Of a stretch of DNA of 64,000 bases, positions 15,981 to 57,932 are shown in pieces. Origin of the DNA: Tetraselmis striata (taxonomy: Eukaryota > Chlorophyta > Chlorodendrophyceae > Chlorodendrales > Chlorodendraceae). Each line of letters starts with the position of its first letter. The first letter of the stretch is position 1. A program made the position numbers and the translations under genes. The notes under the pieces are model-generated. The model saw only the letters and a program-made list of their open reading frames with translations, ran no database searches and was not told the DNA's origin. Location of the stretch: the NCBI GenBank assembly GCA_006384855.1, contig VCJN01000533.1, positions 1-64,000 on the forward strand, read 5' to 3'.

Positions 15981-18900
15981 GTGTGAATTACAAAAAGGCC
16001 ATGAACAAATCCACTACCACTGAAAGCAGTACCAAAAGATCAACACAGCAAGCCGCCTAAAGGCGGCCCGCATCCCGCACGAGGCGGGATCGATGGGTGT
16101 TGCGCGCACGGTTCAGAGTCCGGGCCTCGCGTGCACGTGTGTGCGAGGGTGATCCTGGACGTGCTGCGAAGCTTCGGCACGGGATGGCGGACGGATCTTC
16201 GTTCGCCGTCTGATGAGGTAACGAGCAAGCTCTTGAGCCGCCAACAAGCTCATGACCCCGAGTGAATCTCTTGCGAGTAAGGCCTCCTGGTGGGCCCGAA
16301 TGATGCACCGAGTGCCCCGCGATGAGAGGGCACCCCGATCCGCAGCTAAGCATGCGATACCACGCACTGTGCGGCGCACCCCGGCCCTTGCTCACCTCAC
16401 CCACTGTGCCGAAGACCATGCCCGTGTACTCCGACGTATCCAAGATGTCTCGAAGAGTTCCATGCTATCCCGGCTCCGTGTTATGCCACGCCGCATCCCG
16501 CACTGCCAACCCCCGTTGTATGTCGCCTAGCAGGGAGCGCTCAAACCGATCCACAGCCGTGGCCCGGGGCACCGCAGTGTACCTGACCCCGTACCGCATA
16601 GTCTTGAACTCCAACAATGTGCACTTCAAGCTCCGGGGATCACAGCTCCCCATCGCGACGTTCAACGCCGGGAGGGAGAGCTATGCGTCCGGCACTAGGT
16701 CCTTGAGTTCATCCCTGGGTACGGTGTTGCCAAGAGGCACTGCATGTTGGATCAAGTCATCCACATCCCGCGGCGTATAGCGATGCCCAGATCGTGCACA
16801 ATGATCGCGGAAGGATTATGCAATAGCGTCGTGTTGTACACGCCAGTGAGCGTCTCCATGTGCCGGGTGGTTCATGAGCGCGTCGTCATAGAGGTCGATA
16901 GAGACGGGGGTTATGCTCTGTCGAGGGCAGAATGATTTGGCCATCGGGGCCATGCATGGGCTAGGCAGAGAGAAGTACCCGGCAGCGACCTCCCGCAGCT
17001 CATGCGGAGTCATGACCGTCCGCGCGGTGGGGATGGCCACCGTCCACATGCCCGACGCCGCATTGAGTTGGTTGAACAAGATCCGTTCCCTACATGTGAC
17101 AGGGAGAGCGCACACCTCATTATGAAGCCGAGACTTGTTGGCTTGGTCTAGAAATGCCGCCGGCTCCTTTTGCGAGCGAGCCCGACGCAGCCTTCGCTTC
17201 CCGCTCCATCACGCGGGCATCTGAGTCGCTGAGGTGGCGAGTAGTAGCCGCATGGAGGCGCCCCCACGCCTCGCGCACCTCCGCGGCGTAGCAGGCCGAC
17301 CCACGAGGATCGTTGAGAAAGTGGTCATACCGGCGGGCGGAAGAAGTTGCGTCGAAGCTGCCTCGGCCAAGTACGGACTCCAGCTGTGAGTCAAAGAAAC
17401 ATGGAGTGGCGGTGTGGGTGTCGGAGCTCCTAGTGAGGAACCTCGGGAGAATGTCATTCATGCAGCCGATAAAGGCGGCATCACGAACGGTAGCCACGCG
17501 GCGGATGCCAACGCCCCTCAACCGAGTGGGGAGGTGAAGGATGATGGGCGCCTTGGCCACTGCACCCGCCTCGCTCAAAGTACCCGCCTCTGCTGCCATG
17601 GGGTCAGGGTCGTGCAAAAGCTCCGAAAGGAAATCGGTGACCACCGGATCGGTCAGTGTCGGTGCCGTGCGTGGAGGGATCAAAAGAGACCCCTAGCACG
17701 AGCTCGACCGCCGTGAGGACGGTAGCATCCACCACCTCCGCGAAGGCCTCCACCTTGGATGGGAGGCAGTTGCGGAGCCAATACCCCGCCTTGTGTTGCA
17801 TGCAATGCTTGAGCAGGTCCCATGCGTGGTGGTGCGGGGCGTGGGTGTACCGACGGCTGAGCTTGGCAGATATGAGCTTGCTCAAGCTAGCGTCCACCTC
17901 CTCTCGTAGCTCATCCGCCTTGCCGAACATGTAGGCATGCAACCCCGCACATACCCCGGCGATCCGAGCGGCAAGTTGAGGACCGGGATGTCGTGGTGGC
18001 CATCCAGCTCGGGCCACTCGATGTCGGCCGGAGCCATACGCCGCGCAGCCTCCATGTCCGCGCTGTACGCGTGCATCTTGTCGAAGCGCGCCTCAAGCCC
18101 CACGGACTCTTTGATAGACGTGCGGAAGCTGTGAATAAGGGCCGGCCAAATGTGCTCCGGGAGGCCCACCGAATATCCATCGTCGGCGTTGAAGCGCGCC
18201 GCCCCGTCTGTGACTTCCGATGTGCTGTCGCACTGCTGCACCTCGGGATGAATCGCGACGCAAAAGCAAGTCGTGGCCAATGGCGCGCCATGTTGCACGC
18301 CGTCGTCCGACCGCAGATGGGCGGACCGATCGTCCACGAGCATATACGAATCCGCGGAGAGGGAGGCTTGGAGCGCAGGGATGACATGGTGTAGAGGAGA
18401 GCAATCGATGTGGCGTTGGATGATGATGCGGCTCCACGCATGGTAAGTGTTGCGAAAGTCGGTGTAAACGATGACGGCACGTAGGCCAAGCTTCTCGGCG
18501 ATGAGGTGGACGCCGGTGATGATCATAGAGTCGCCGGTGGAAATACCGACGTCGAGTTGAGACGGCGCAAGCACCGACACTACATACGCCTCCTTCATGT
18601 TGTCCACCACTGCCCGCTCCGCTCTGCGCCGCTCCGACTCCCCGACTGCCACATGCCGCATGTCCGGGGCCCCGCTCTCGCCTAGATTATTGACAAGGGC
18701 CACAAAGCTTAGCAGAGGCGAAGAGCCGGTTGAACCTCACGGGCAGGCGACCTTGGAGGTACATTGAGGCGACCTCCAACAAGGCGCGGGCCGCCGCATG
18801 CCCCGACGCCGGGGCTAATTCGCTCAACAAGCAGCGGAGATACTCGTTGCGCATGCCTGAGGGCCGCCCCACCGCCACGTGCTGCTTGAGATGTTGGTAC

Positions 18901-24812: not shown

Positions 24813-27800
24813 TCAGGCAATCAGCGGGCCGATGCGCTTTTCGAACAGCGTGCTCAGCGCGCGCTGCACCTCCACCGGCGCGTGCTGGCAGCTGATGAGG
24901 CGCGTGAGCAGCGGGAAAAACTCGCGCAGGTGGCGCTTGAACTCGCCGTCGCCGAGGGCCGAGAGCGCCCGTAGCGTGGCCACCACCAACGGTGCGCGCG
25001 CGCTGTGCTCCGCGCTGCTGGTGGACATGGACATGTTGCTGGGCGGCCCGCCCTCGCCGCCCGCCGCGGGCTCGCCGGCCCCGTTGGCGTCCGAGAAGGG
25101 GCCCACCGCCTCGTAGCGCTCCAGGTTGGCGGTGCACAGCTCCACGAGGCGCTCCTCGATGCAGGCGGCCGCCTTGCCCTCCGCGCCGCCTGGCGCCATG
25201 TTGATGTGGAGCAGCACGGAGAGGTACGAGTGGCTCGCCTCGCTCTCCAGCTTGAGCAGGGGGGGGTCCGCCAGCGCCTTGTAGTCCTCCACGCGATCCG
25301 CTGCCTGCTTCTGCGCCAGCAGCCGCCGCATCTCCTGCGGCCAACAGGGTTCCGACGCCGGTGAGCTGTGGGGGCCACGAGCTAACAGGGAAGGTTGGCA
25401 CGAGGCGCTGCAGGACTGTACGTATTTACTGTGTTAGATGATTTACCCAGAAGAGGGCATATGTATCACAATTAGTTAAATTGGAAGGGGGGGGGGGGGG
25501 GGGGGATAACATGCCGTCCCATCCACGAGTCAGCAGGAGTGGTTTGACAGGTTCATGGTACCATGACCGTAGGGTTGATACAGCTCCCTGAAATCGGCCC
25601 TGTCGCGCACGGGCGCTCGTACCATGTCCCCATCCGTGACCCGAGCGTGCGTGCTGACGCCGCGAAGGACGTCCAGGATGACGACGACGGCGGGGCCGGG
25701 CAGCCGGCGGCAGTGGCGCGCATACATCTCGCCGCACGCCTGCACCAGCAGCAGCTGCACCGCCGCGCGGCACTGCACCTCGCCCAGCCGCCGCGCGCCG
25801 AGCCCCTCGCCCAGCGACCAGTCGCGCAGCACCTGCGGGTGGCCCGCGCCGTCGTACACCGTGGACGGCTCCTCCCGGCTCGGGGAGCTGCCCGCCTCGG
25901 CGGGGCTGTGCCACACCAGCTCCGACACCTGCGGCATCGTGTCGTTGGCCGCCCGGCGCACGACCGTCATGGTCGCCACCCAGTGCTCGTCCGTCAGCAG
26001 CGGGCCCGCCTCCGCGATCAGTCGCACCAGCGCCGCGACGCCGACGGCCGCGAGGCTCTGATGCGTGCGCGAGATGAAGTCGGCGAGAAGCGCCAGCAGC
26101 CGGTTCATCGTGGGATTCACGACCGGGAAAAAGTGCACGAAGAGGTCTACCAGATGCTGCAGGCACTTGGTGCACGTGTTGTACAGCCACTTGTCCTCGT
26201 CCGCGCGGCGGCGGTCGTCGGTGAACGTGGTGGTGTCGGTCACCTCCGCGCGGACGTGGTCGAAGATGGGGAAGATCACGCTGTCGAAGACGCGCGCCCA
26301 GAAGGACGCGCTGAAGCACTTGCCGTGGTAGCGAAGGATGTCAAACAACACCTGCGAGTCAAACGACCGCCACACGGCATTGTGAGTGAGTGGCAGGCAG
26401 TCGTCAGCCCTCCAGGCGCAGAACGCGGCAACGGGACAGGACGATCACTCCTTTCCGCGGGACGGTCCGAAAGGCGTGCGGAGCGCGCCGGTGCGCACCT
26501 CTAGCGCCGAATAGCGGATGTCCGGGCGCGGGTCGAAGGTGAGCTCCGACAGCCCCACCAGCAGCGGGAACCAGAAATACATGTGCTCATCCTTGTCGGT
26601 GAAGTGCAGGCGGCCGGAGGTGCCCCGCCCCGCCGACGCTATGGAGGCGGGCGAGCCCGGCAGCTCCGCTTGCAGCGCGGCCGAGGCATGGAGCAGGGCG
26701 AGGCTGGCAGCGCCCGCTTCTCGGCCGGCGGCGTCCAAATCGCGGATGGTCATGGGCTTGGGATTCGGAAGATCCCCCGCTTGTAGCACATCCTGCCAAC
26801 ACAGAGCGATGTGTGAGCCCTTCATGCTGGTCCAGGGCTGCATGCTAGTCACGCGATGAAACAATACAAAATGGCATGACAATAGTCGCACGGAATCACC
26901 TCGGGCAGCTCATCCACGCTGCCGATTGCGCCGTCGGCGAGCTTCATCGCGCAAAATCGGAGAAACGCGATGGCGTTCAGCGCGACATCCAGCGAGTGGG
27001 GGTTGTTTGTGAACGCGATGAGGCAGTTGACGCAGTCGGTGAAGGTGGTGACCTCCGTCTCGGTGATGTGCGCGAAATGCTCGCGCACAATCTTCTCGAT
27101 CGTCTCAAAAGACAGCCGCACGATCGTCTGCGCGTCGTCCTGGGCGGCGGTGGTGAACACCATGAACATGCTCTTCCAGCCCGACTTCACGTTGGCGACC
27201 CGCGCCAAGACCATCTGCAGGACCGCAGTGTGTGGTGTTAGATACATACCAACTATCGCGAGTGCACAAAGACGACCAACGGTTACCAATGAGATATTTT
27301 GTGATATATACTAGCAGGTAGTGAGATATTTATCTTATCATTCTCATTGGCAAACATCCTTCCGAGAGCATCGTCATCACCTGGCTCACGCAGCGGATGA
27401 TAAGCTCCCGGATTTCCACACTGTGGCTCTGCCTCATCACCACCACAAAAGGGCGCAGGAACTCGTTCTGAAACGTGTAGTTGGCCAGCTCGTCGCGCTC
27501 CAGGAACTTCATGGCCAGCTGCCGCAGGGAGTCCACCGCAAAGATGGCGACAGACAGGTTCTGGGACACGCAGCAGGATGGCACTGCTTAGCGCCCGCAA
27601 TGATGCGCGCCATGGGGCAGACCGGCGAAGCGCGCACATGTGTGGGGATTAATTGAGGCACCTGGTGACAGCCGACAGTGATGAAGTAGTCGCTGAGGAC
27701 GGCCCAGATGCGGTTCCACACCAGGCGGATGCGGTTCATGTTGAAGTGCGCGATCTCCACGATCTTGGTGAGCCCGTACACGCGCGGGTGCTTCGCGTTG

Positions 27801-28492
27801 GCCAGCTCCTCCAGGCTGAGCTTGCACAGGTCCGACACAAAGTCCACGATGGCCGTGCTGTTCAGCCGGTCGCTGTGCACAAACAGGCGGTTGAGCTCCT
27901 GTGCGCTGATGACCTGCGGGAGGGCACGAGATGAGCACACCCTCAGCAATGGATGGAAGGGGGCGCTGGAAACGAAAGATGATGGCCAGTAGCCTGATCT
28001 GTAATACACGTTAGTGTTAGTGCGGTTAGACATGGCAGGCCCTTAGAACAGATCCGTCCGGGCGGCGGAGGGCAACGCACTAGCATGTTGTAATCAATTT
28101 CAATTTCAATTGCACACCCTCAGCACCCGGCCCATTGTGGTTCCTGATTAGCGACACCGTTAAAATGTTGGCTGCACAGGGCTTCATAGCTATTCTATCT
28201 ACTAGTGCTTCAATGCACCTACTAAGATGTCCTGCCACATTGAGGATGGAAGTGCGAGCTGTCCATGCGTCCGGGGGGATTGTGCGCCGCCATCGTCGTG
28301 ACAGTCACATGAAAACAGCGCCCATCTCCTGCACTCATGGATACAATGGCTGGGACTGTGCGCTGTGATGTATGACAGCATGGGTGGATTACAGTAAAGT
28401 CCGCACTCCCATATGTAATACTATTATAAGAATAGGAAACATGCAGATGCATATTAATACAAGGTAAACATTATAGATGCACATGCGCAGAT

Positions 28493-28550
<58 letters not shown>

Positions 28551-31500
28551 ACACAGATAGTACATATGAGGCAGAGATAAAGAACATCACGATCGAAACA
28601 ACAAATGCGAATACCCCGAGAGGGGAAGGGGGAGAAGGGCGGTCACCTCTAGGACCGCCGGCGGCGGGGCCGCCATCGGGTCGCCTGCGCCTTTCCACTG
28701 GCCGAAGCTCTTGAGCGAGCGCCGCTGCACCTGGGGCGGCGACTTGGGTAGCCCAGGCTCCACGCCGTCCCGCAGCTCGCGCGACTCGCGCATGTTGGAG
28801 TCCACGTCGCCCATCGGCCCCGGGCTCCCCTGCGCGCCCGCGTCTGCCGCTCTGGCCACGCCGCCGCCAGCTTCCTCGGCGGCCCGGCTGGGCTTGCTGC
28901 TGCGCCCCCACAGCCCGAGGCTGCGCTGGGCAGGCTTGGCGGGCGCGTCAACGCCGCCGCTGGGCCCGAACAGGACGTTGTCGCCTGGCAGGCCGCTGTG
29001 CTGCTGGACCAGCATATCGTAGCGGCTCACGCAGCGGAGGACTTCCGGCCAGGCGCCCTGCAGGCGAGGAGGGACGTGAGCGAGTGCGAGGGGCAACAGG
29101 ACAGGCGCACCTCGCAATCAAGTGTTGTCAAAGGTGTGAGGGAGGTGGGCCAGCACCTGGAAGGTGTTGCCGTTGTGCTCCGCGGCGATGAGCAGGGTGC
29201 GCAGCGCGTGCGCGCTCTTGACCGTCATGGTCGACGGGGAGTGCAGGCCGGTGAAGCGCGACAGGGAGGTGACGTAGGTGTCGCGCAGCATCGTCATGCC
29301 CAGCATGGAGGTGAGGGAGATCGCGTGGTAGAAGCCGTCCAGGCAGAGGTTGCTCAGCTGGGGTGCCTGGTGATGGAGACAAAGCAGAGGGGGGGGGGGG
29401 GGGGGGGGGGGGGTCATATTCCTTTCGCGCTGCAGACAATTCGAGCATTGAGAACAAGAGCGAGAGCGAGAAAGTTGAACCAAGGGTTTCAGTGCTGCTG
29501 CTCACCTGCATGGAGTCACTGACTTCGAAGAGGACGCTAAATGCTCCCAGCATGGGCGCCCACGCCACCTCAATCATCGGGCGCACTGTCTCGCCATCTG
29601 TGGCAGTGAAAAAGGTGGCGCCCTTGGCCTTCTCCCTGAGGTTCGCCCAGCAGCGGTGCGAGCGGTTGTCAACACTTCTGTCTTACTTCTAGCTGATTGT
29701 ATCATCTCCCATTAGCCCCCGCATCGTCCGCATTGACCTGACAAGCCGGATCTTTCGGACGTCACGTCAATTCATAGTTATGGGGGCGAGCTGCGGCAGC
29801 ATGTGGTTTGCAGGTACGGGGTGGGGGAGGCCCACTTGAGGTACTCGTGTGTGCGGCGAATGGCGTCGTCGCTGGGCTCGTTGTAGTCGACCGCCTTGCG
29901 GCCAATCATGCCCATGACGGTGTCAATCCAGCTCAACTGGAGGCACTTGGCGGCCGAGGGGGCGGCGTGCATTGACTCCACGGGGTCAGTGTCCTTCATC
30001 TTGATTTCGTTGCCCTGGATGCGGTCGTACAGGTTCGCCAGGTAGTCCGCCGGCAGATCCTGGCCGTCGTTGATGCCGCGGTTATTGTTTAGAAACCCGT
30101 CGCGGCTCATCTTGACCTTCACCATGGGGTTGTGCGCATCCGTGTTGAGCATGATGACAGAGAAGGCCAGCACGTACGCGACGTCTGCGCTCTTGAACAT
30201 GTTCTCTGGCGAGCACATGAAGAAGCGCTCCGCGAACTTCTCCATAAGGCGGTCGATCTTTTGCGCCTCGCCGGGCAGCCGGAAGTCGGCCAGGAACATG
30301 CGGATGGCGTCGTCAAACTCCATGCCGCTAAAGTCCATGGAGTCCACGTACGCATGCATCACCTGCGCCAGGCAGATCATCGGCGTGATATCAGGGCGGC
30401 ATGGCGTGTGGGACAGGGCAAAGCATGAAGCATGCGGGGGCCGGCCAAGACACGGGGTGCTGGAGCGAGGGAGGGAGAACAGCACCTTGATGCAGGTGTC
30501 GTCGCGCTCGCCCAGGTAGTCGCCAATGAGGGTCTTGTTGAGGCCCTTGGTGCGCTGCAGAAACACCGCGATGTCCTCAGTCGAGGTGCCCAGCATGCCG
30601 TGCTCCTGCATGAACGCAATGCCCTTCTTGGGCTTCTTGTTGAACAGCGCGATGCCCTCCTGGAACCCCGTCTTGTATGCCTTGCGGCTCTCGATGTTGT
30701 TCCTGTCGAGCGCCTTGTCCGAGCCGTTGGCGGCCGTGCCCGGCGACCCCTCGCCCTCCTCCACAGAGAGGCTCCTGCACACACGCGCATACATACCTCA
30801 GTCGGTCAACCCCGCAGCCAAAGAGAAACACTGCACAGTTACGGCCAGACAAGACAAAAGTCACGCATCGCGCGATCCCGCACCCGAGGCTCTTCCCTCG
30901 CAGATGCTTGAGGCTTCGACTCGAGGTGACGCCCTCCTCCTCCGCGGCGGCGGCCTTTTCCTCCTCCTGCTCCTTAAACAGCCGCAATCTCACATGAGCA
31001 GGCAAGATTGCAGCCGCGCAGAAGCAGAAAGGGGCAGACCCAGGAAAGGGGGGGGTTAAGCAGGGGCTGGCCCGCACCTGCGGCATCACGGTGGCGCCCT
31101 TGTACCAGTTGCTCAGCGAGCGCAGAATGGCGACCAGGCACTCGGTGGCCATGGTCTGCAACACGACCTCCTGCTCCAGCTGCTGCTTGGTCGGGTTCTC
31201 GGCGATGTTGCCGTGCCCTTGCGCGATGCGCACCAGGCCTGCAGCAATCCAGGCAGCCCGGTCAGATCTCCCCCTCCCCAGGCTCGCACAGCCACGCAAT
31301 GCACACTGGCAGACGGTCCCATTCGGGAGGGGGTCCTGTGCTGGCGGGCCGCACCTGAGACCATGCGCTCAAACAGGTTGGAGCCCTCCAGGTCGCAGTC
31401 GTAGTTGACAAACAGGTCCACCAGCACCTGCCCGTCGCTGCACTGCTCCTTCAGGCACTTGAGCACGACCGACATCTGGCCCGCGCCCACCGGGTTACCG

Positions 31501-42632: not shown

Positions 42633-43402
42633 GGTCGGGCGCAATGTCATTGGGTGGGGCACACGGACGTGTAACACTTGCACTTTGCGCGTACTGCTGG
42701 GTTACATCCAAGCGGTGTCACACTATGCAACCGGAAAGGCTGCGTTGCTACTGCAAACGATGCTACGCCTCACTCGGTAGCAACCGCTGCCCCGCCCATC
42801 CCACTCGGGATGCTGAGAGCAGCTAAAGGGCACCGGGGGCGGGGCAAGAGGGAGCAGGGCCAATGATTGTGGAAGAGCGGGGACCCGCTTGCATGCCATC
42901 GTATTATATCTTGCACAATATCTGTTGCTGCACTCATATCTCACATCACTAGCTTAGCTATAGTGATTCCCCTCCCCCCCCCCCCCCCCCCCGCACCGCG
43001 GACGCACAAGCCTGGGTATACGCATCAACTGCCCGCCGGGATGAGAAACTGGTATTGGTAGTGTGTCTGTGGGGTGGAGGGGGGGCAAAAGAGCTGCCAA
43101 TTGCTGCCAAGCTGGTGCGTTACATTGGGGCAGGCGCTGGGCAGACAATTGGGGCTCGCTTCAGAGCATTGTCTAGTGCCTATGCGGCTGCGCCGCCTCC
43201 GCCGCATGCAGACTCTCCGGGCTCACCAGCACCGCCACCTCAGTCATGCGGCCCTGCATCCCGCAGCCCGCCGCCGCCAGCCAGATCAGAGGTATCCAGA
43301 AGCCAGTGCTGGGGTTGTTGCGGCATGACCGCATAGTTTTCAGCGCCTGCCGTCCACAACTTGTAATGCATCCCTTTCCGCCGATTCCGCTGTATGCGCT
43401 GT
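42633..43402. other. Intergenic, with poly-C and the probable seed of the minisatellite
   Basis: Poly-C at about 42973-42992. CGCTGCCCCGCCCATCCCAC at about 42785-42805 recurs exactly inside the minisatellite at about 43952-43972. Confidence 0.6.
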
Positions 43403-44262
43403 CTTGGCGCCGCGCTGCCCCGGCCGCCGCGCGTTGGCGCCGCGCTGCCCCGGCCGCCGCGCGTTGGCGCCGCGCTGCCCCGGCCGCCGCGCCTTGGCGC
43501 CGCGCTGCCCCGGCCGCCGCGCTTGGCGCCGCGCTGCCCCGGCCGCCGCGCGTTGGCGCCGCGCTGCCCCGGCCGCCGCGCGTTGGCGCCGCGCTGCCCC
43601 GGCCGCCGCGCGTTGGCGCCGCGCTGCCCCGGCCGCCGCGCCTTGGCGCCGCGCTGCCCCGGCCGCCGCGCCTTGGCGCCGCGCTGCCCCGGCCGCCGCG
43701 CCTTGGCGCCGCGCTGCCCCGGCCGCCGCGCCTTGGCGCCGCGCTGCCCCGGCCGCCGCGCCTTGGCGCCGCGCTGCCCCGGCCGCCGCGCCTTGGCGCC
43801 GCGCTGCCCCGGCCGCCGCGCCTTGGCGCCGCGCTGCCCCGGCCGCCGCGCCTTGGCGCCGCGCTGCCCCGGCCGCCGCGCCTTGGCGCCGCGCTGCCCC
43901 GGCCGCCGCGCCTTGGCGCCGCGCTGCCCCGGCCGCCGCGCCTTGGCGCCGCGCTGCCCCGCCCATCCCACTCGCGTTGGCGCCGCGCTGCCCCGGCCGC
44001 CGCGCGTTGGCGCCGCGCTGCCCCGGCCGCCGCGCCTTGGCGCCGCGCTGCCCCGGCCGCCGCGCCTTGGCGCCGCGCTGCCCCGGCCGCCGCGCCTTGG
44101 CGCCGCGCTGCCCCGGCCGCCGCGCCTTGGCGCCGCGCTGCCCCGGCCGCCGCGCCTTGGCGCCGCGCTGCCCCGGCCGCCGCGCCTTGGCGCCGCGCTG
44201 CCCCGGCCGCCGCGCCTTGGCGCCGCGCTGCCCCGGCCGCCGCGCCTTGGCGCCGCGCTGGG
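43403..44262. repeat. 30-bp minisatellite, about 28-29 copies
   Basis: The unit is CTTGGCGCCGCGCTGCCCCG plus GCCGCCGCGC. Variants differ mostly by CGTTGG/CCTTGG. One unit is 29 bp (about 43521). One is interrupted by a CCCATCCCACTCG insertion (about 43958-43975). Being a multiple of three, it stays open in several frames on both strands and inflates ORFs of 200-576 codons. Uninterrupted blocks of identical units imply recent expansion. Confidence 0.95.
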
Positions 44263-44276
44263 TATCGAGTCCTCCC

Positions 44277-45757
44277 CTCCCTAGTGAGCGCGTCCACCTG
44301 CGCCTTGCGCTCGGGGCCGTCCTCCTCCGTCACCACATTCTGCAACCCCCACCGCGTGACGAACCACGCAGCTCCTTGCAGGCGCTTGTACATGTGCCCA
44401 AGCACCGCCAGTCGTGACACCGAACGCACCACCGCTGGGGACGCGAGCTCCTTCTCGGGCATGATCGCCTTCACCCGGGCCTCCTCGAGGAGCGGACCGG
44501 CGTTAAGAATGGAAAACGTTTCCATGTGGTGCAAGCAGTCCTCCATGACCCAGCCGGGCTGCACCGTCACCTTGCCTGACCCTGCAGTCATGGAGGGGAA
44601 TGCCGTCACGCCCACGCCCACGCCCACGCCCGGGGGGGGGGGGGGGGGGGGGGAGGGGTTTACCTTTCGATTCTTGGACACTGCAAACGAAGGGCGCAAC
44701 CCGCGTTCAAAGTTGCTGGGTATCGGGACTAAAGCCTGGCGCCGGTCTTCCTGCTTCATAGCTCGGAATCCAATGTGGCCCTGCACGGTGACAAATTTCC
44801 TCCAGAAGTCCCTTCCCAAGCCAAAAAAAAACAGGTGGAACGGCGCGAGGGGGAAGAGGTTGACCATGCTGACATAGCCCCGGACCACATGCACATGGCA
44901 CACGCCATGGCAGCCAGTGTTCTGCTTGGCCTCCGCCAGCCGGGTTGTGTTGACCGCACGCCGGGCAAGGTGCGTGATTCACTGGACAAGTCATCGCCTT
45001 CATGGACGGTTACCAAGCGAGCCTCCCCGTCCGCATCCACAGGGGGGTGCTCCTGGGCAGCCGTCATAGCCTCCACAACCTGCCACGCCGACCGGGCGGG
45101 TGCGTGTGATTCCATACAACCGCAGTTGAGTGGTGCCACCAGCACGCAGGCCGGGCCCACTCACCTCTGAACGCAGAAGGCCCACAATGCCCCCGTCCTC
45201 GAAAACAGCGCGCCACTGGGTCGCCCCGCCGTAGTCCTCCAACACCCACTCGGTAACGACGCCGGTTATCACGCCGTAGTGCCATACTCCCCGGAACTTC
45301 TTGGCGATGACCTTCATGTAGAAGTCGCCGGAATCGCCTTTCCATATCACGCCCTCATCGCGGGTTCCACGCCCGCCGGCGGCCACGCAGGCGCGTCGAT
45401 GTCCATACCGTCTTCGCCAACGGGGTCCTCCCCCACGCCCATCACATCGTCCACCTTCGAGCCGCCGTCGTCCGAGACCGGCGCCGGCGGGCCGTTTCCG
45501 ACGGCTGCAGCTACTCCTGCTGCCGCCCCTGTTGTTGTTGCTGCTGCTGCTGCCGCCCCTGCTGCTGCTGCTTGTGATAAGGCGGCCTTGCGGCGCAACT
45601 TAGCCGCACGCTTCAACGAGTGGCTACAGTTCGGGAATTTTAGGAAGTGCCGCTCTCGCGCCATCTTCTCACAAGTGCCCGTCACGTTGCCCCGGCAGTG
45701 CTTGCATGAGTACACGCCATCCTTCGACACACTCGCTATCCATCCCTTTGCCGGCAT
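44277..45757 (-). CDS. BED-like zinc finger plus Tudor-like domain protein, several exons (transposon-related, model incomplete)
   Basis: An ATG at 45757 starts MPAKGWIASVSKDGVYSCKHC; with RERHFLKFPNC it forms a CxxC...H...C finger of BED type. Basic and Ala-rich segments and an acidic linker follow. In the next frame comes DFYMKVIAKKFRGVWHYGVI...WRAVFEDGGIVGLLRSE, which resembles Tudor/agenet-like folds (KKF.G.WY.G.V...W.V.F.DG). It ends at donor GAG|GTGAGT (45165). Exon 45079 downward: VVEAMTAAQEHPPVDADGEA. A later exon (NLFPLAPFHLFFFGLGRDFWRKF...VSKNRK, ending about 44665 at AAG|GTAAAC) is followed by a poly-C intron. The last exon (about 44580-44277) contains PGWVMEDCLHHMETFSILNAG. A one-base offset near 45370 and one unresolved junction leave it uncertain whether the gene is intact. 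Confidence 0.4.
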
Positions 45758-50068: not shown

Positions 50069-52000
50069 CTCCCGCTCGCTTGTGAAGGGCACCGAATTTC
50101 GCACGTAAGGGCGATCGAGTGCGTTGATTTGCGGGGCGGGACCACGGTCGTTAAGGATGCGACCGGCGCTTACCTTACAAGTGACCCAGCAGCACGAAAC
50201 TATGCGCCTCGATCCGCCGATGCCTTGTTTGCGCCGCCTACCAGCCAAAGCGGACAGCGCTGCGTTGTCTTGCACTCTTGCAGTCCCGCTCCTTTGCGAC
50301 GGCACCGGCAGGGCAGGTGTAAGTGTGTGCCGGGTGGTGCTTCGGGGCGTTGACCTGGCGGGATCGCGGCCGTCAAATTTCTGACAACACTTACTACATG
50401 GTAGGTGTTTATGAGGCAGCAGAAGGCCTCTGCCCAATGCCCATGCGTCGCCCGCAAGTCGCAAGGCGCGCTTCCGTCCACCCGCACTCGCCTCACCTGC
50501 CACGGCACACGCACGGTACGGAAAATAGGGAATCTCTTGGGCGTTGACCCGGCGAGATCACGGCAGGTACAGGGAGAATCGGCACTTGTCGGGCAAGTCA
50601 AGCAGCGGATTGAGGACGGAGCGGCTCAGCGACCGCCCGCTTGAGCATCGCTGGCGCGCCTCATGCTCAGCGCCTCGCTCACGTCGCCCACGTACCTGAC
50701 GTCACGAAACGCAGTCCAAGGGTTGGGGCTTGCCCTTGGAGTGTGTTATGGGGCAGGATCGTGGGAGCTGTCGGCACAACATGCAATTGCGGGTGGGCGA
50801 GGCGCGGGGAGTTCTGTGCGCCGAATGTCTCGCCGCGCAGCGTTTGAACTGCTTGCCGCCCCCTAGCTCGCAACCTTGCGACCCAATAATCCAGCCTCCA
50901 ATGGCCGGGGTGCCAAAGAGCTACTACTTAACGTTAATGTGGAACAACTCTATACCAAGATCGACACATAGCCGCCGAAAACCATGCATGGTCGGAAATC
51001 GAAAAAACACTGGTCGACCAAGATTTTTTGGTTAACCATGGTCGACCATGGTCACGACCAATACCACGATCCAGCCGTGGCGGGCGGGCCGGCCGGCCGG
51101 CGTGAATGGGCTTACGGGATAGTTTTAGCGGTTGTAATGTGGATTTAGCAGCGGGACCAATTTAGACCTAGCGGTTCGCGCGCGCAGTAGGGGTCGGCCG
51201 CGCGCGGGTGCGGCAGCGGGGGGCGGCGGGTGGCGGGTGCGCAACCCCCCCCAGAGATTCCAGAATCTGCTATCCGCCCTTCCGAACCAGAGCCGCCAGC
51301 AGCCGCCCGCCAGCCGGGCAGCCGGGCTACGGCCTACGGGTGTGTGCAGACTCGCACCGAGCACAACGGCACGAGCTGCGAAATCCGGCATTCAGCCACC
51401 AGCCGCCAAGCCCACGCCTACTCGCCAACTCGCCAACTCGCCAAGATCTTGACATCCCGTTGCCTGCGCGATGGCCAGCCCCAGCTATGGCATGCATCAT
51501 TCCCACCGCAATTGGGTATGTATGCACCCCAACCACCTACAGCCACAGATCCGACACATGGGTCACATGTCTGCTATTGTTCAGTAATAATTGTTTGCAT
51601 CTGCTGTTGTTGCTGCCGCAGCGGGCTCAAACACCGGCGGAGAAGCTAGTACTGATCATGCCGGACATCATCGTGCCGGCGTGGCCAAGCAAGCATAAGC
51701 ACGTGCGTGGTGCTGGCAGCTTGTAGTGACATGCCTCTTATCCTCCAAAACCATACCGCAACAGGCGATTAGCATGCGCCTAGAACTTCGGGATGCACAA
51801 TTGAATCAGCATTATTGCATTACTAACAGTACTTTGAGGTTGTACAAAAAAAACCATGCCTGCCGGAAATACCATGGTTGACCATGGTTAACCATGGTCA
51901 TGGTCAACCATGGTTTAACCACGGCGGCGGCTCTGGATCGACATATACGTAACAAATAAACACCTCCGTGCTCGATAAAGCACATGTAGCTCCCCGCCGG
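50069..52000. other. Intergenic, with CCATGGT palindrome clusters at 51.0 and 51.9 kb
   Basis: No supported gene. Frames at 50085-50503 (minus) upstream of the nuclease start and at 51208-51726 (plus) have biased composition only. Palindrome clusters at about 50985-51062 and 51868-51922 bracket about 800 bp. Confidence 0.45.
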
Positions 52001-52002
52001 TA

Positions 52003-52437
52003 TCCATGGGGGTGTCCAAACAATACCGCGGGCCCGTAGACCATCCATACTTTACCGCAAGGGGGGCCATAGAATACCGCCGGGGGCTCAAACTTTACCG
52101 CGACCAGTCCAATCAATACCGCGATCAGGCCAATCAATACCGCGACCAGTCCAATCATTACCGCGCACACAGCCAGACCTCCAGCGACCCCGCCTGCTTC
52201 CAGGGCGGGCACAGTGACCCCCAGTCACACCCTCGGCAGAGCGGGGGAACACTCCCGGATGTAGGAGGGCCGGCGGCGGCGGCAGTGACGTTGCGTGGCG
52301 GTGACTCGGCGAGCCGCGGCGGTCGGGTAGTCGGCCGGGTCGGAACGACTGGACGGGCGACTATATGTGACAAAGGCTGCCGCCGCATCGAGAAGGGACG
52401 CTACCAGAAAGACTGCCAACATGACAAGGGGAAGGGG
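52003..52437 (+). repeat. Left terminal inverted repeat of the pogo-like element
   Basis: It contains seven (A/T)(A/T)TACCGC words between about 52018 and 52170, in a CCAGTCCAATCAATACCGCG-like tandem context. It matches the reverse complement of 55650-56099 with scattered differences. Confidence 0.8.
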
Positions 52438-52846
52438 GGGGGGGGGATTCTTCAATTCTCGAAACAATTCTGGCAGACATCGGAGGTAGGCCTCGGCATG
52501 GTGCGGCTTCTGGCAGAGGGAGTGGGACTGCTGGTTGCAGTCGGTGAGTCTGGTGGCAGCCAGCCAGGGAGGCATGTATGGGGACCGAGTGTAGTGGCTG
52601 CCCAAAATTTCCGAAGAGCTGAGCGGGTCGGGTTACATGCTAGCATGACAGAATAATTATTTATATAATCTTATTCTCTTTGGGCTCATTGTCCTGGCTG
52701 CTAACATATTCGGTGCCTGCCCTGGTCTACCATAGCACCAGTGAGAATTATCATCCGCGTTTGAAAGCGGCAGCAATCAAGCAGATCACAGCCCCAAACC
52801 CTCTCCTTGACTTGTACCAGCATTATAAGCCATGCAACCGTTGTTC

Positions 52847-54600
52847 CTAGGACCCATGCGAGGCGGGATTCTGGCGCTCAGCCATGGTGTCCTTCACTTC
52901 CATCGGCTGCCTGGCATACTCTTCGTGCCACTCCTCACTGTGCTGTAAAATTTTGTGCGCCACCTCCAGCTCCTCTTCAGCATTTGAAATGTCTTTCATC
53001 AGACTCTCCAAATCAGAGGCTTTTGCAGGGATTGGCGTATCATATTCCACGCGAGGTGACTTGATACGAGCCATCCACTGCTCGCCGAGCTGAGTCTTGT
53101 TGAGAGTGCGCATCGCTGAGCGCAGGGGCATCTTGCCGGCTGAAAATAGCAAGAGAAGCTATTTGCCGGCTACGTTTGAAACAGGCAAATACAAGAGAAG
53201 CGCTTACTAAATGTCACCACTTTTGGTATCACATGTGGTCCAACAATGCCATGACACTCCAAAAACTCAAGGAAAGCAAGCTTTGTATCCTTGCTGACCC
53301 ATCCATTCTCAGTATCGGCGACAGCCACTATATCACCTTTCAGCTCCCTGTGTTTCATAATCACATCTGTATTGTAAGTATGTTTTACACAACGTATCGT
53401 AATTGTTGAAGATCAAGCACTGTTGTAGCTACCAATAGGTAGAAACAAATCAACAAGTATGTTTATGTCAATCATCCGTCTTGCACCATACTAATGTAGT
53501 GAGACTCACTTGGCCAAGTTTGTAGGCAGATCTTTCCGTGCAAGGATCAGCATCATCGGAAGGGCCTTCCTGCCCATTGTGGCCAGTATTGCAGTAACGT
53601 GTTCGGCCCGCTAAGAAGGATCCAAAATCTGGGTTTTGTATCCCTCCAAGGTCAGGAACCCTTTCTTGGTTCCACTGCACTGGATTAGCAGCACGTTGAT
53701 GTCCAGGGTTGTCTCATCATAATTGATTATCTGTTGAATGGTGAGCATGGGTTGAGGCAGCAAGGCGTCTGCTCCATGTTGCGCCCTAACCCACTTGATG
53801 GTGAGCTCACGCATGTTTGACACCGCAGGCCGGATAACCTATCAACATTTGTGGCAGCACAGAACAAGGCATCAAAGTTAGTCCAACTCGCTACCGTAAT
53901 CATATACGGTGCACATACTGTGTGGTGATCAATCATGGAATGCATGCTGGCGCTCACATTCTCATGGAACCACTTGACATTGTCCTTAGTGAGTGCATAG
54001 CTGCACTGCATTCCCATTGAGTGTCCACTGCGATGAGCAAACTCAATCCCTGAGATGCATGACATGTGGATCTATGCCTTGTACCAACCATCCATGCATG
54101 TGTCCTTGGTGTACGGCCGGCCACAGATGTCCTTCAGGCCAAGCTCAATGAACATGGCTTTCGCCATCTTCTTGATCTCTCGGTGATGCACAGGCTCATC
54201 GCGCAAGATCATCACGCTGACGACGTCCGCCAACCACAACTCTGCATCTGGGCATAGTGGAGCTCTGCCCGGGGGTCGCAGTCCCTCGCCAGCCTTGATG
54301 CGCATCACATACTTGCGCTCCTGCTCGCCATATGGCACGCCCCAATAGGACTTGATGGTCTCGAACTTTATGGGCTCAGCTGCTACTGGCCATGACTTTC
54401 TTCCAGGCCCTTGCTTTAGGGTATCGTGGTCCTTCTCATGGCGACACAAATGATTTAGTGTGACGCCGCCATTGGACAGCACCTCTTCACGGGACACCGC
54501 TGCCTTGCGGGCAGGCATGTCCTCCCACTTCTCGAGCATGCTCATCACCAGCGTCAGGTTTTTGGGGTTTGTCTTGTTGTAGGACCGAGCACTGGATTTC
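52847..54600 (-). CDS. Pogo-like transposase with introns (one in-frame TAG)
   Basis: The first exon (about 54600-54087) contains MSMLEKWEDMPARKAAVSRE, and CPDAELWLADVVSVMILRD...HHREIKKMAKAMFIELGL, a CENP-B/psq-type helix-turn-helix. It ends at TTG|GTACAAG. Exon 2 (from about 54045) adds IEFAHRSGHSMGM...ALTKDNVKWFHENV and ends at ACA|GTATGT. Exon 3 (from about 53848): VIRPAVSNMRELTIKW, NYDETTLDINVLL (the DET block holding the first catalytic Asp), then a TAG at about 53611, then VTAILATMGRKALPMMLILARKDLP to donor AA|GTGAGT (about 53513). Exon 4 (from about 53345): VADTENGWVSKDTKLAFLEFLE, HVIPKVV. A last exon (53152-52847) holds a helical tail. The transposase would bind the end repeats and cut at TA. 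The TAG makes this copy doubtful as an active source. Confidence 0.6.
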
Positions 54601-55649
54601 CGCAAAAATAGTCGAACGACAAAAAGACAGTAAATAATTAGCCTTTCATCATATGCGATACGAGTCATTCACATCAAAATTTCCCACAGCAAACACACAT
54701 ACACAAACATGTAAGCAAGCATCATATAGAAAGTGTATATGCTTGTAAAATCATATGATGTTGCAATTCACTGCTTTCCACATACTTCAAAATCATCAAT
54801 ACTGAATCACATACAGGTTTGCAATGCATATGTTACCGTACACATATGCTGCGATGTTTTTCAAATATGTTTCACATGCAGTGACGTCTCGACATCATAG
54901 TAGTTTTCAAGTTGTTTTTGTTTCTAAGACCAGCTCGGCAACCACCATAGGGCAAATTGGATTTGCGTCCTTCACTGTCAAGCAACACTGGACACGTTTG
55001 TTATCGGCTTGCGTTGTCATGATATGATCTAGAACTCAGTCACTTCAAAATCACATCAACTAAGCATGAAAACATGGATAGATAGCATATGTGCTGAGTT
55101 AAAGACAAAAGACTGTATTGCTTTATATTTCACATTTGAAGTTTTGCACACTGCGACTTTGATAACAATATAATCATCGAACATACTCTCATCATACACA
55201 CTGTGAATATACGGCTTCCATACATTTTTTTCCCTCCCCACATATGCTTCAACATTCGTAGATACGAGTTTATTTCTGTATATATGTGTGGCAGCAGCAT
55301 GTGTATGTATGCCATTCTCGCAACCGTCAGACTAGCTCCTGGATGTTGCCTTCGCGAGCGAACGTCCTTTGCTTCTCTGTCTGGCTCTATGAGTTATAAT
55401 GGTCATGGACTAGCCTACGTGAATACGCGGCGCGCGTGTAGACACGCCGCTGATGCGGCGGTATGCCGAGCTTTAGAGTTGCTGCCCGCATCTATTATTC
55501 GTCGGCTCGTCTAAAAACCTGTTGATTTGTTGGGCAAGCATCCATATTACCATATATACCCCACCTTCTTCGCCTTCCTCCTGACCCCTCCAAACTGGCC
55601 GCCCTTAGCACCACCGGCGGGGCCCGTCGTACGTTGTAGAGTTCCCCCC

Positions 55650-56099
55650 CTTGTCATGGTGGCAGTCTTTCTGGTAGCGTCCCTACTCGATGCGGCGGCA
55701 GCCTTCGTTACATATAGTCGCCCGCCCAGTCGTTCCGACCTGGCCGACTATACCCGACCGCCGCGGCTCGCCGAGTCACCGCCGCGCACCGTCACTGCCG
55801 CCGCAGCCGGCCCTCCTACATCCGGGAGTGCTCCCCCGCTCTGCCGAGGGTGTGACTGGGGGTCACTGTGCCCGCCCTGGGAAGCAGGCGGAGTCGCTGG
55901 AGGTCTGGCTGTGTGCGCGGTAATTATTGGACTGGTCGCGGTATTGTTTGTACTAGTCGCGGTATTGATTGGACTGGTCGCGGTAAAGTTTGAGCCCCCG
56001 GCGGTATTTTATGGACCCTCCGCGGTAAAGTATGGACCTTTCCGCAAGTCGGTTTTCCGGTGTTAAGGACCCGCGGTATTGTTTGGACACCCCCAGGGA
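55650..56099 (-). repeat. Right terminal inverted repeat of the pogo-like element
   Basis: GGTA(A/T)(A/T)(G/A)T(T/A)TGGAC-type words recur seven times at about 55920-56090, mirroring the left repeat. The frame at 55527-56066 reads through it but is antisense-equivalent to the left repeat and not a gene. Confidence 0.8.
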
Positions 56100-56105
56100 T
56101 ACTGG

Positions 56106-56474
56106 TATGAATTACAAAAAGGACAGTAATAAATCCACCTACTGCTAAAAGTACCCGTAGTACAGTAGGTACCAAAAGATGAACAGATCCCGGCCGGTAC
56201 TGGTGTGAATTACAAAAGGGGCAGTAACAAATCCCGGCCGGTACTGGTGTGAATTACATAAAGGGCAGTTCCCCATAATTAGAAAATCAACACAGCAAGG
56301 AGCCTAAAAGCGGCCCGCATCCGCCCGCATAAGGCGGGATGGATGAGTGATGCACACGCGGCTCAGAGTCCGGGCTACGCGTGCACGTGTGTGTGTGGGT
56401 GATCCTCGGACTTACTGGTGTGAATTACAAAAAGGGCAGTTCCCCAGAATTAGAAAATCAACACAGCAAGCCGC
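56106..56474 (-). repeat. Tandem 3'-tail fragments of the reverse-transcriptase element
   Basis: GTGTGAATTACAAAAAGG (or one- to two-base variants) occurs at about 56106, 56204, 56248 and 56421, followed in two cases by AAAATCAACACAGCAAG and the GCGGCCCGCATCC tail. Tail-only copies abut the longer copy. Confidence 0.7.
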
Positions 56475-57932
56475 CTAAAAGCGGCCCGCATCCCGCATAA
56501 GGCGGGATGGATGAGTGATGCGCACACGGTTCAGAGTCCGGGCCACGCGAGCACGTGTGTGGGTGGGTGATCCTCGGACGTGCTGTGCAGCTTCAGCAAC
56601 GGGATGGCAGACGAATCTGCGCCGTCTGATGAGGCAGCGAGCGCGCTCTCGAGCGGCCACCAAGCTCAGGACCCCGAGGAAATCTCTTGCGAGCAAGGCC
56701 TCCTGGTGAGCCCGGGTGATGCACCGAGTGCCCCGCGATGAGAGGGCACCCCGATCCGCAGCCAAGCATGCGATACCACGCACTGTGCGGTGCACCCCCT
56801 TGCTCACCTCACCCACTGTGCCGAAGACCATGCCCGTGTACTCCGACATATCCAGGATGTCTCGAAGAGGACCCTTCTGTCCGGGCTCTGTGTTGTGCCA
56901 CGCCGCATCCCGCGCAGCCAACCCCCGTTGTATGTCGCCCAACAGGGAGCGCTCAAACCGATCCACAGCCGTGGCCCGGGGCACTGAAGTGTACTTGACC
57001 CCGTACCGCATAGTCTTGAACTCCAGCAGCGTGGACTTCAAGCTCCGGGGATCATAGCTCCCGGTCACGACGTTGAACGCCGGAAGGGAGAGCTCTGCGT
57101 CCGGCACTAGGTCCTTGAGTTCATCCCTGGGTACGGTGTTGCCGAGAGGCACTGCCTGCTGGAACAGGTCATCCACCTCCCGCCGTACCGCGATACCTAG
57201 GTCGTGAACACAGTGGTCGCGGAAGGCATCTGCGATAGCGTCGTGCTGTACACGCCAGTGAGCGTCTCCAGGCGCCGGGAGGTTCATGAGCGCGTCGCCG
57301 TATAGATCAACAATGACGGGGTTGGGCTCCGTCGAGGGCAGAATGATCTGGCACCCAACCACCGGGGCCAAGCACGGGCTAGGCAGAAAGAAGTACCCGG
57401 CAGCGACCTCCCGCAGCTCATGCGGAGTCATGGCTGTCCGCGCGGTGGGGATGGCCACTGTCCACATGCCTGACGCCGCGTCGAGCTGGTTGAACAAGAT
57501 CCGTTCCCTACATGTGGCAGGGAGAGCGCACACCTCATTTCGAAGCCGAGAGTTGTTGGCATGGTCTAGAAATGCCGTCAGCTCCTTTTGCGAGCCCGAC
57601 GCAGCCTCCACTTCCCGCTCCATCTGGCGTGCATCTGCGTCGCCGAGATGGCCAGCAGTAGCCGCTTGGAGGCGGCTCCACGCCTCGCGCATCTCCGCGG
57701 CGTAGCTGTCCGACCCATGAGCATCGTTGAGGAAGTGGTCATACTGGCGGGCGGAAGAATTTGCGTTGAAGCTGCCTCGGCCAAGTACGGACCCGAGATG
57801 TGGGTCGAAGAAACCTGGGGTGGGGGTGTTGGTGCCGGAGTTCCTAGTCAGGAACCTTGGGAGGATGGCATTCATGCAGCCGATGAAGGCGGCATCACGA
57901 ACGGTAGCCATGCGGCGGATGCCAGCTCCCGG
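56475..57932 (-). CDS. C-terminal half of a non-LTR-like reverse-transcriptase polyprotein, 5'-truncated but open
   Basis: The frame is open for 495 codons. The family match starts at an Arg-Met-Ala-Thr (MATVRDAAFIGCMNAILPRF, ATG at 57911), so everything upstream, including the RT domain itself, is missing. Within it are RNEVCALPATCRERILFNQLD, MTPHELREVAAGYF, LPAFNVVTGSYDPRSLKS, TAVDRFERSLLGDIQRGLA, GMVFGTVGEVSKG, and RALEARDFL-like AHQEALLARDFLG. The degraded copies at 16 and 6 kb align along this length. The role of this C-terminal domain is unknown. The absence of stops suggests a young insertion or selection. The stop is in the shared 3' tail. Confidence 0.6.
   Translation of the reverse strand, partial: PGAGIRRMATVRDAAFIGCMNAILPRFLTRNSGTNTPTPGFFDPHLGSVLGRGSFNANSSARQYDHFLNDAHGSDSYAAEMREAWSRLQAATAGHLGDADARQMEREVEAASGSQKELTAFLDHANNSRLRNEVCALPATCRERILFNQLDAASGMWTVAIPTARTAMTPHELREVAAGYFFLPSPCLAPVVGCQIILPSTEPNPVIVDLYGDALMNLPAPGDAHWRVQHDAIADAFRDHCVHDLGIAVRREVDDLFQQAVPLGNTVPRDELKDLVPDAELSLPAFNVVTGSYDPRSLKSTLLEFKTMRYGVKYTSVPRATAVDRFERSLLGDIQRGLAARDAAWHNTEPGQKGPLRDILDMSEYTGMVFGTVGEVSKGVHRTVRGIACLAADRGALSSRGTRCITRAHQEALLARDFLGVLSLVAARERARCLIRRRRFVCHPVAEAAQHVRGSPTHTRARVARTLNRVRITHPSRLMRDAGRF

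Follow-up and report, generated by a model that had tools for sequence, protein, structure and literature searches.

An internally deleted, TA-flanked transposon of Tetraselmis striata with a probable pogo/Fot-type core and seven putative transposase sites in each long inverted end

Introduction

Most pogo elements are short-ended. A survey of the superfamily describes elements of 1.20-5.20 kb, with the DD35D signature in almost all Fot/Fot-like members, and divides their terminal inverted repeats (TIRs) into four classes, the longest of which (392-856 bp) is stated to be restricted to insects; it also describes Mover as DD36D, with a DNA-binding domain not detectable by hmmscan (PMC7386202). 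Minos and some other Tc1 elements likewise have long ends, and those of Tec measure ~700 bp (PMC7325037). The long TIRs of Galileo hold repeated THAP sites, for which higher-order multimers have been suggested (PMC3688188), and three direct repeats per end have been called 'almost peculiar' to Bari and a few look-alikes (PMC8834629). Here we analyze a transposon in the chlorophyte alga Tetraselmis striata that combines long ends with many repeated sites. It lies at 52003-56099 of the first 64,000 nucleotides of contig VCJN01000533.1 (assembly GCA_006384855.1), a stretch referred to below as the window.

A preliminary description of this locus had proposed a pogo-like transposon with long inverted repeats, each carrying a sevenfold motif. 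Our analysis indicates that the locus is very probably a cut-and-paste transposon from the IS630-Tc1-mariner group that inserts at TA and has here lost part of its interior, with a catalytic core of the pogo/Fot DD35D type and a transposase that would read arrays of 17-bp units in both ends.

Results

The element has long inverted ends and is inserted at TA

The window copy is a DNA transposon flanked by TA, with inverted ends of ~435 and 453 bp. Its left tip reads TA(52001-52002) followed by TCCATGGGGGTGTCC, and its right tip reads GGACACCCCCAGGGA followed by TA(56100-56101), which in the inward direction is TA followed by TCCCTGGGGGTGTCC. The two arms, 52003-52437 and 55647-56099, are identical in 402 of 428 aligned columns (93.9%). 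The inverted ends and the TA on both sides that had been noticed initially are confirmed.

When the left arm was used to search the 224-Mb genome, 31 matches were obtained on 18 contigs, including the window's own left and right arms. This count is a lower bound that covers places recognizable through the left arm. Every match outside the window was taken together with its surrounding DNA, which gave 19 loci (L numbers below), some of them cut by the end of the stretch or contig. The same tips were found across these copies, in agreement with the preliminary description. Of the 29 ends compared, six were set aside because their tip is cut short or has diverged; in one of these, TA lies beyond the first aligned base. 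TA stood outside the tip in 22 of the 23 preserved ends, so the expectation of TA at every end failed in a single case, where the dinucleotide is CA. Counting shared flanks once left 17 distinct flanks, 17 of which had TA, and among two-ended copies TA was present at both ends in 6 of 7, the seventh having CA and TA. The 17 distinct flanks rule out the element being a piece of a larger satellite. A target duplication longer than TA was also rejected, as the flanks of two-ended copies have no further in-register identity.

The window insertion lies inside a 44-bp repeat, and adjoining units retain the uninterrupted site, CCGGTACTGG, with a single TA. Joining the window flanks by one TA and aligning them to the 44-bp unit gave 50 ungapped columns with a score of 38, comprising 44 matches and 6 mismatches. 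The score of the 15 left-flank bases by themselves was equaled or exceeded by 2 of 500 shuffles, and it is therefore the right flank, together with the register of the join, that carries the case for the empty site. The counts of ends and the single-TA empty site both show insertion at TA with TA duplication, the mode of the IS630-Tc1-mariner group.

Each end carries seven units of a 17-bp motif

Each inverted end contains seven units of the 17-bp motif GTCCAWWCWWTACCGCG, mostly 21 bp apart. Their cores lie 22, 51, 73, 94, 115, 136 and 157 bp from the left tip and 22, 73, 94, 115, 136, 157 and 178 bp from the right tip. The arms are unequal, with 29 bp from site 1 to site 2 in the left end versus 51 bp in the right, showing that the ends differ by one ~21-bp step between these two sites. 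The window holds 22 WWTACCGC words compared to 7.94 expected (standard deviation 2.97), a number that 0 of 100 shuffles reached, and 14 of the 22 words fall inside the two arms, seven in each, so that the sevenfold motif of the preliminary description is well founded. On each strand of the window, the densest 160-bp stretch holds seven copies of TACCGC.

A logo of 129 units from 21 ends showed 17 informative positions and then a variable 4-bp linker, with weak signal outside; the units were chosen by a partial pattern, which biases the core columns of the logo upward. The 17-bp length is also that of the CENP-B box, a coincidence that may be due to chance. The window's own left end is the sole left end with seven exact cores, making it the best-preserved left array seen. 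In a tree of 17 ends the window's two arms clustered (0.841), and other groupings were weak. Sequence may have been exchanged between the arms of a single copy, and the good preservation of the window's left array is perhaps the result of exchange with its own right arm. Outside the array, a GC-rich inner stretch of the right arm of L014 (5888-5799, or 271-360 from the right tip) was the least divergent 90-bp interval of the element at 2.4%, and possibly represents a promoter or a further binding region.

The interior encodes a transposase with DD35D spacing

The transposase gene is on the minus strand, and its exons E2-E6 were inferred from L014 and L009; the introns between them measure 80, 81, 143 (144 in L009) and 114 nt and have GT-AG borders throughout. 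Pooled over 14 copies, differences from L014 amounted to 3.8% at first, 4.5% at second and 6.2% at third codon positions and to 8.3% in the inferred introns, a coding footprint that supports the interior minus-strand gene proposed in the preliminary description; L014 was the reference for every pair, so the pairs are not independent. The excess at third positions is due to the more diverged copies (L017, L020, L023, L024, L026 and others). As to the N-terminal exon and start codon, the inner right arm contains an ATG that leads into a G-run whose length varies, with no consistent frame among the copies read.

Across the exons of L009, 142 residues separate the first catalytic D (D1) from the second (D2), and 35 residues separate D2 from the third (D3). 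D1 is present in 9 of 11 copies compared, as NYDET in eight and NHDET in L026, with L010 lacking the exon and L013 not read in that frame. D2 (DGHYTN) is present in 7 of 9 copies, being replaced by V in L009 and cut by a deletion in L010, and D3 (HSTHKTQSAD) survives in 6 of 9, with L017, L023 and L024 sharing a 5-bp deletion there. The DDE/D triad of the IS630-Tc1-mariner group can thus be recognized by motif across copies, with D1 alone in the window copy. The D2-D3 spacing of 35 residues matches the DD35D of Fot/Fot-like elements and differs from the DD36D of Mover.

The reference for the core was one Fot-like fragment, which Pfam confirmed as DDE_1 (E 1.5e-37, 129 bits). BLASTP gave an E value of 7e-10 for this single pair, with 48 of 189 residues identical, and the alignment score was 104, compared to 2000 shuffles that averaged 30.7 and did not exceed 61. 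The block from D2 to D3 aligned to the same fragment over 37 ungapped columns with 12 identities, a score that 0 of 20,000 shuffles reached. Judged by this one fragment, the core is homologous to DDE_1 (PF03184), as in pogo transposases. On sequence likeness to the one pogo-type reference compared, the catalytic core belongs with pogo/Fot-type enzymes, and the transposase is a putative divergent, Fot-like member of these DDE enzymes, unplaced as to family. The pogo-type assignment made at the outset therefore stands with respect to TA insertion, DD35D spacing and a DDE_1-like core, and falls short in the profile comparison, which is given with the helix-turn-helix comparison in the Discussion.

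Structure and database searches added no relatives. AlphaFold of exon E2 alone gave a poor model (mean pLDDT 38.5), with which Foldseek returned 89 matches at E <= 10 and none at <= 0.001. The best match in a PDB sequence search was a mannosidase at E 0.0048, which was judged to be chance, and no relatives were found in the viral contigs scanned.

The window copy is internally deleted and non-autonomous

Compared to L009, the window copy lacks 1,546 bp (1586-3131 in L009), and it has three in-frame stops, one each in E2, E3 and E4. The deleted segment includes the exon with D2 and D3, the loss of which makes the window copy non-autonomous as well as broken. Of the NYDETTLD and DDE-like blocks that had been assigned to its gene, the first catalytic D in E3 is there, while the second and third are deleted. 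At the scar, a 39-bp filler contains short copies of both deletion borders, CAAGAGAAG and TTGCCGGCT. Filler scars of this kind are typical of gap repair cut short in cut-and-paste elements, and the middle of the window copy was probably lost by such a route. The copy would be mobile only with transposase supplied from elsewhere.

The opposite explanation, a foreign 1.5-kb insertion into the longer copies, was ruled out, as E5 and E6 lie in this segment and continue the gene's reading frame, which makes absence of the segment the derived state. A near-intact recent copy was likewise excluded by the stops and the deletion. The initial impression that the element looks recent apart from one TAG must be given up, given the three stops and the deletion.

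Other copies vary in length, and those with all of E2-E6 are damaged

Six copies outside the window had both tips (L009, 5,523 bp; L014, 5,782 bp; L013, 4,704 bp; L010, 4,573 bp; L011, 3,860 bp; L022, 569 bp), and each of the remaining copies yielded a single tip or lies on a cut stretch. The longest copies are thus 5.5-5.8 kb, and the left arm of L014 is interrupted by a foreign stretch. The several near-identical 4.1-kb copies that had been anticipated did not materialize: copies with both tips range from 0.57 to 5.78 kb, and the window's deletion junction was found in 0 of the 19 fetched loci.

All of E2-E6 is present in three fetched copies, and every one is damaged: L009 has one stop and the lost D2, E4 ends one base short in L014, and L026 has stops and frame changes. 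The related copies L017, L023 and L024 keep E5 with the 5-bp deletion and have lost E6 through a deletion distinct from that of the window, showing that internal deletions arose more than once.

Flanks are held in common by L009, L014 and L015 (C2411 and C2337, with two on one contig), by L011 and L018, and by L017, L023 and L024. This sharing reflects alleles or segments that are duplicated in the assembly. At L022 (C2846, 478-1046), a 569-bp foldback derivative with TA at each side is composed of two left-type arms, placed back to back with hardly any sequence in between.

Features of the window

The coordinates of the element's features are collected in Table 1.

Table 1. Features of the transposon and its insertion site, in window coordinates
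Feature	Position	Strand	Details
Left target-site TA	52001..52002	.	Tip sequence and comparison of copy ends
Left terminal inverted repeat, L type	52003..52437	+	29 bp between cores of sites 1 and 2; arm comparison and genome matches
Left array of seven 17-bp units GTCCAWWCWWTACCGCG, putative transposase sites	52014..52165	+	Unit starts 52014, 52043, 52065, 52086, 52107, 52128, 52149
Kept C-terminal part of transposase gene	52847..53144	-	Stop codon 52847-52849
39-bp filler at scar of 1,546-bp internal deletion	53145..53183	.	Comparison with L009
Transposase exon E4	53208..53428	-	In-frame stop 53413-53415; last base before GTAAGC donor is A, G in other copies
Transposase exon E3, first catalytic D (NYDET)	53510..53838	-	In-frame stop 53611-53613
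Transposase exon E2, presumed helix-turn-helix region	53919..54599	-	In-frame stop 54072-54074
Right terminal inverted repeat, R type	55647..56099	-	51 bp between cores of sites 1 and 2; 5' side of transposase gene
Right array of seven 17-bp units	55916..56088	-	Unit starts 55916, 55937, 55958, 55979, 56000, 56021, 56072
Right target-site TA	56100..56101	.	Tip sequence and comparison of copy ends
Two 44-bp tandem repeat units keeping the empty site (CCGGTACTGG, one TA)	56182..56269	+	Flank-join alignment and Tandem Repeats Finder

Near the element, palindromic CCATGGTT repeats lie ~90 bp to the left (51871-51914). To the right, at 56242-56585, are direct repeats of 94 and 81 nt, ~170 bp apart and 91-95% alike, and GTGTGAATTACA recurs at 15981, 37093, 56418 and 58630. 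Elsewhere in the window, pieces of a BIG-type ArfGEF gene were found on the minus strand at 25530-30797 (Sec7 domain, 6.3e-70; BIG2_C match below cut-off), and a long low-complexity array at 43173-44978 has GRGSAAPR-like repeats in several frames.

Discussion

A possible role for the arrays

It is plausible that the arrays are docking sites for the transposase and that they serve in cooperative binding and synapsis of the ends. The N-terminal DNA-binding domain would read a bipartite 17-bp word made up of GTCCA, an AT-rich middle and TACCGCG. With seven words per end, mostly 21 bp or two helical turns apart, the bound molecules would lie on one face of the DNA, and the 29- and 51-bp spacings would correspond to about three and five helical turns. 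The bound transposases could then assemble cooperatively, bring both ends together and position the catalytic domain beside TA, at the TCCCTGG tip. Arrays are present in both ends, also in the one that is not upstream of the gene, which speaks for a part in transposition and not in transcription alone.

Several results weigh against this picture of a pogo-type transposase that reads the arrays. Pfam gave no relevant match, whether queried with single exons (E to 1) or with the spliced L009 protein and fragments from two more copies (E to 10), so that the transposase stays below the detection cut-off for DDE_1. There was also no Pfam match to a DNA-binding domain of the CENP-B/HTH_Tnp_Tc5 type in the single exons or the spliced protein, and a pairwise comparison with a fragment that is HTH_Tnp_Tc5 by Pfam scored 36, compared to 25.6 +/- 4.3 for shuffles, 61 of 2000 of which reached the score. 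The splice model is based solely on GT-AG signals and divergence, and the close copies (L009, L010, L011, L013 and L016) have little or no third-position excess. Regarding the arrays, seven exact TACCGC cores are present in just 8 of 29 ends (7 of 16 right and 1 of 13 left), the others holding decayed sites, and the sixth left site is TACCTC in L009, L010, L011, L012 and L013. In eight left ends, motif columns varied less than linkers (0.057 versus 0.080), the direction seen in right ends, and the difference was not significant (911 of 5000 permutations).

One alternative is that the arrays are bound by a regulator, from the host or encoded by the element, that acts in transcription, anti-silencing or repression, and that the transposase needs the terminal unit only. 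The right end is 5' of the gene, which puts the right array in the presumed promoter region, and the least divergent inner stretch of the right arm in L014 is free of sites, indicating that constraint on the arms is not wholly in the sites. However, the same type of array is found in both ends though the right one alone is upstream of the gene, and the outermost unit, found in the element's first 28 bp, shares its 17-bp form with the inner units. We regard the regulator explanation as unlikely.

The arrays could also be a passive minisatellite with a 21-bp period, which grew by expansion within one ancestral end and was passed on to the opposite end, with the tip alone being important. Tandem Repeats Finder detects a tandem repeat in each array, and both the nonsignificant left-end comparison and the 21 of 29 ends with fewer than seven exact cores fit such an origin. 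In contrast, it is the 17 bp that are conserved among units and not the linkers, and in seven right ends the motif columns were about one third as variable as the linkers (0.034 versus 0.098; 3 of 5000 permutations), which in this comparison take in the tip and the long spacer. We consider a passive origin somewhat less probable than binding by a regulator. Least likely is membership in another TA-inserting superfamily, whether Tc1/mariner proper or an unnamed lineage, with the pogo likeness reflecting common DDE ancestry only: the missing Pfam match, the lack of a detectable DNA-binding domain and the comparison to a single pogo-type reference, with no Tc1 or mariner reference, leave room for it, but the ungapped D2-D3 match to the DDE_1 fragment counts against it.

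Beyond the reading of the locus as an internally deleted, array-bearing pogo/Fot-type transposon, a bolder and more tentative idea, which we think possible without favoring it, is that the element represents an undescribed deep pogo/Fot-type lineage. In that lineage long, unequal arms with 2 x 7 sites would have replaced short ends, and the transposase would form an ordered row on one DNA face, similar to the higher-order multimers suggested for Galileo. If this were true, L022, with its two left-type arms, would demonstrate that a pair of left ends is enough for mobility.

Comparison with known systems

The closest described relatives by catalytic core are the Fot/Fot-like elements, which have a DDE_1-type core, DD35D and, in part of the family, TA duplication (PMC7386202). 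Their TIRs are mostly 40-60 bp (~100 bp in FotC), versus 435-453 bp with seven motifs each in the present element, and the longest copies here exceed the range given for the superfamily (PMC7386202). Another difference is that Pfam detects neither the DDE nor the DNA-binding domain of the present transposase. Mover resembles it in the DNA-binding domain, undetectable by hmmscan there and by Pfam here, and differs in being DD36D (PMC7386202). The unclassified insect pogo elements with 'Type 4' TIRs share the superfamily and the length of the ends, and are described, in the survey section on TIR classes, as restricted to insects and with no mention of a motif array (PMC7386202).

Long-TIR pogo elements and TIRs with multiple sites are each already known, and the novelty is the combination of a Fot-like core with long, seven-site arms. 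No description of a pogo element with such an array was found in the titles and abstract openings of the open-licence papers returned by our literature searches. The pogo survey used a strict TBLASTN cut-off of 1e-100 (PMC7386202), and since Pfam missed a transposase of this type, surveys based on profiles or strict TBLASTN may undercount such elements.

Outside pogo, the Tc1 elements Bari, Paris, S, Minos and Sleeping Beauty have inverted repeats with internal direct repeats that are transposase sites, and Bari2 and Bari3 also have long TIRs; the Bari group has three direct repeats compared to the seven units per end, mostly with a 21-bp period, found here (PMC8834629). In Galileo, of the P-element superfamily, long TIRs hold repeated sites that are bound by the transposase, as is putatively the case here; its transposase is a THAP-domain enzyme of the P superfamily, and its binding was footprinted, whereas binding to the present arrays is predicted (PMC3688188). 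Long ends with seven phased sites thus converge on the design of Galileo and, with fewer sites, on that of Bari and its look-alikes, and the T. striata element offers a test case for whether many-site transposases reflect short-word specificity, cooperative loading or dosage control.

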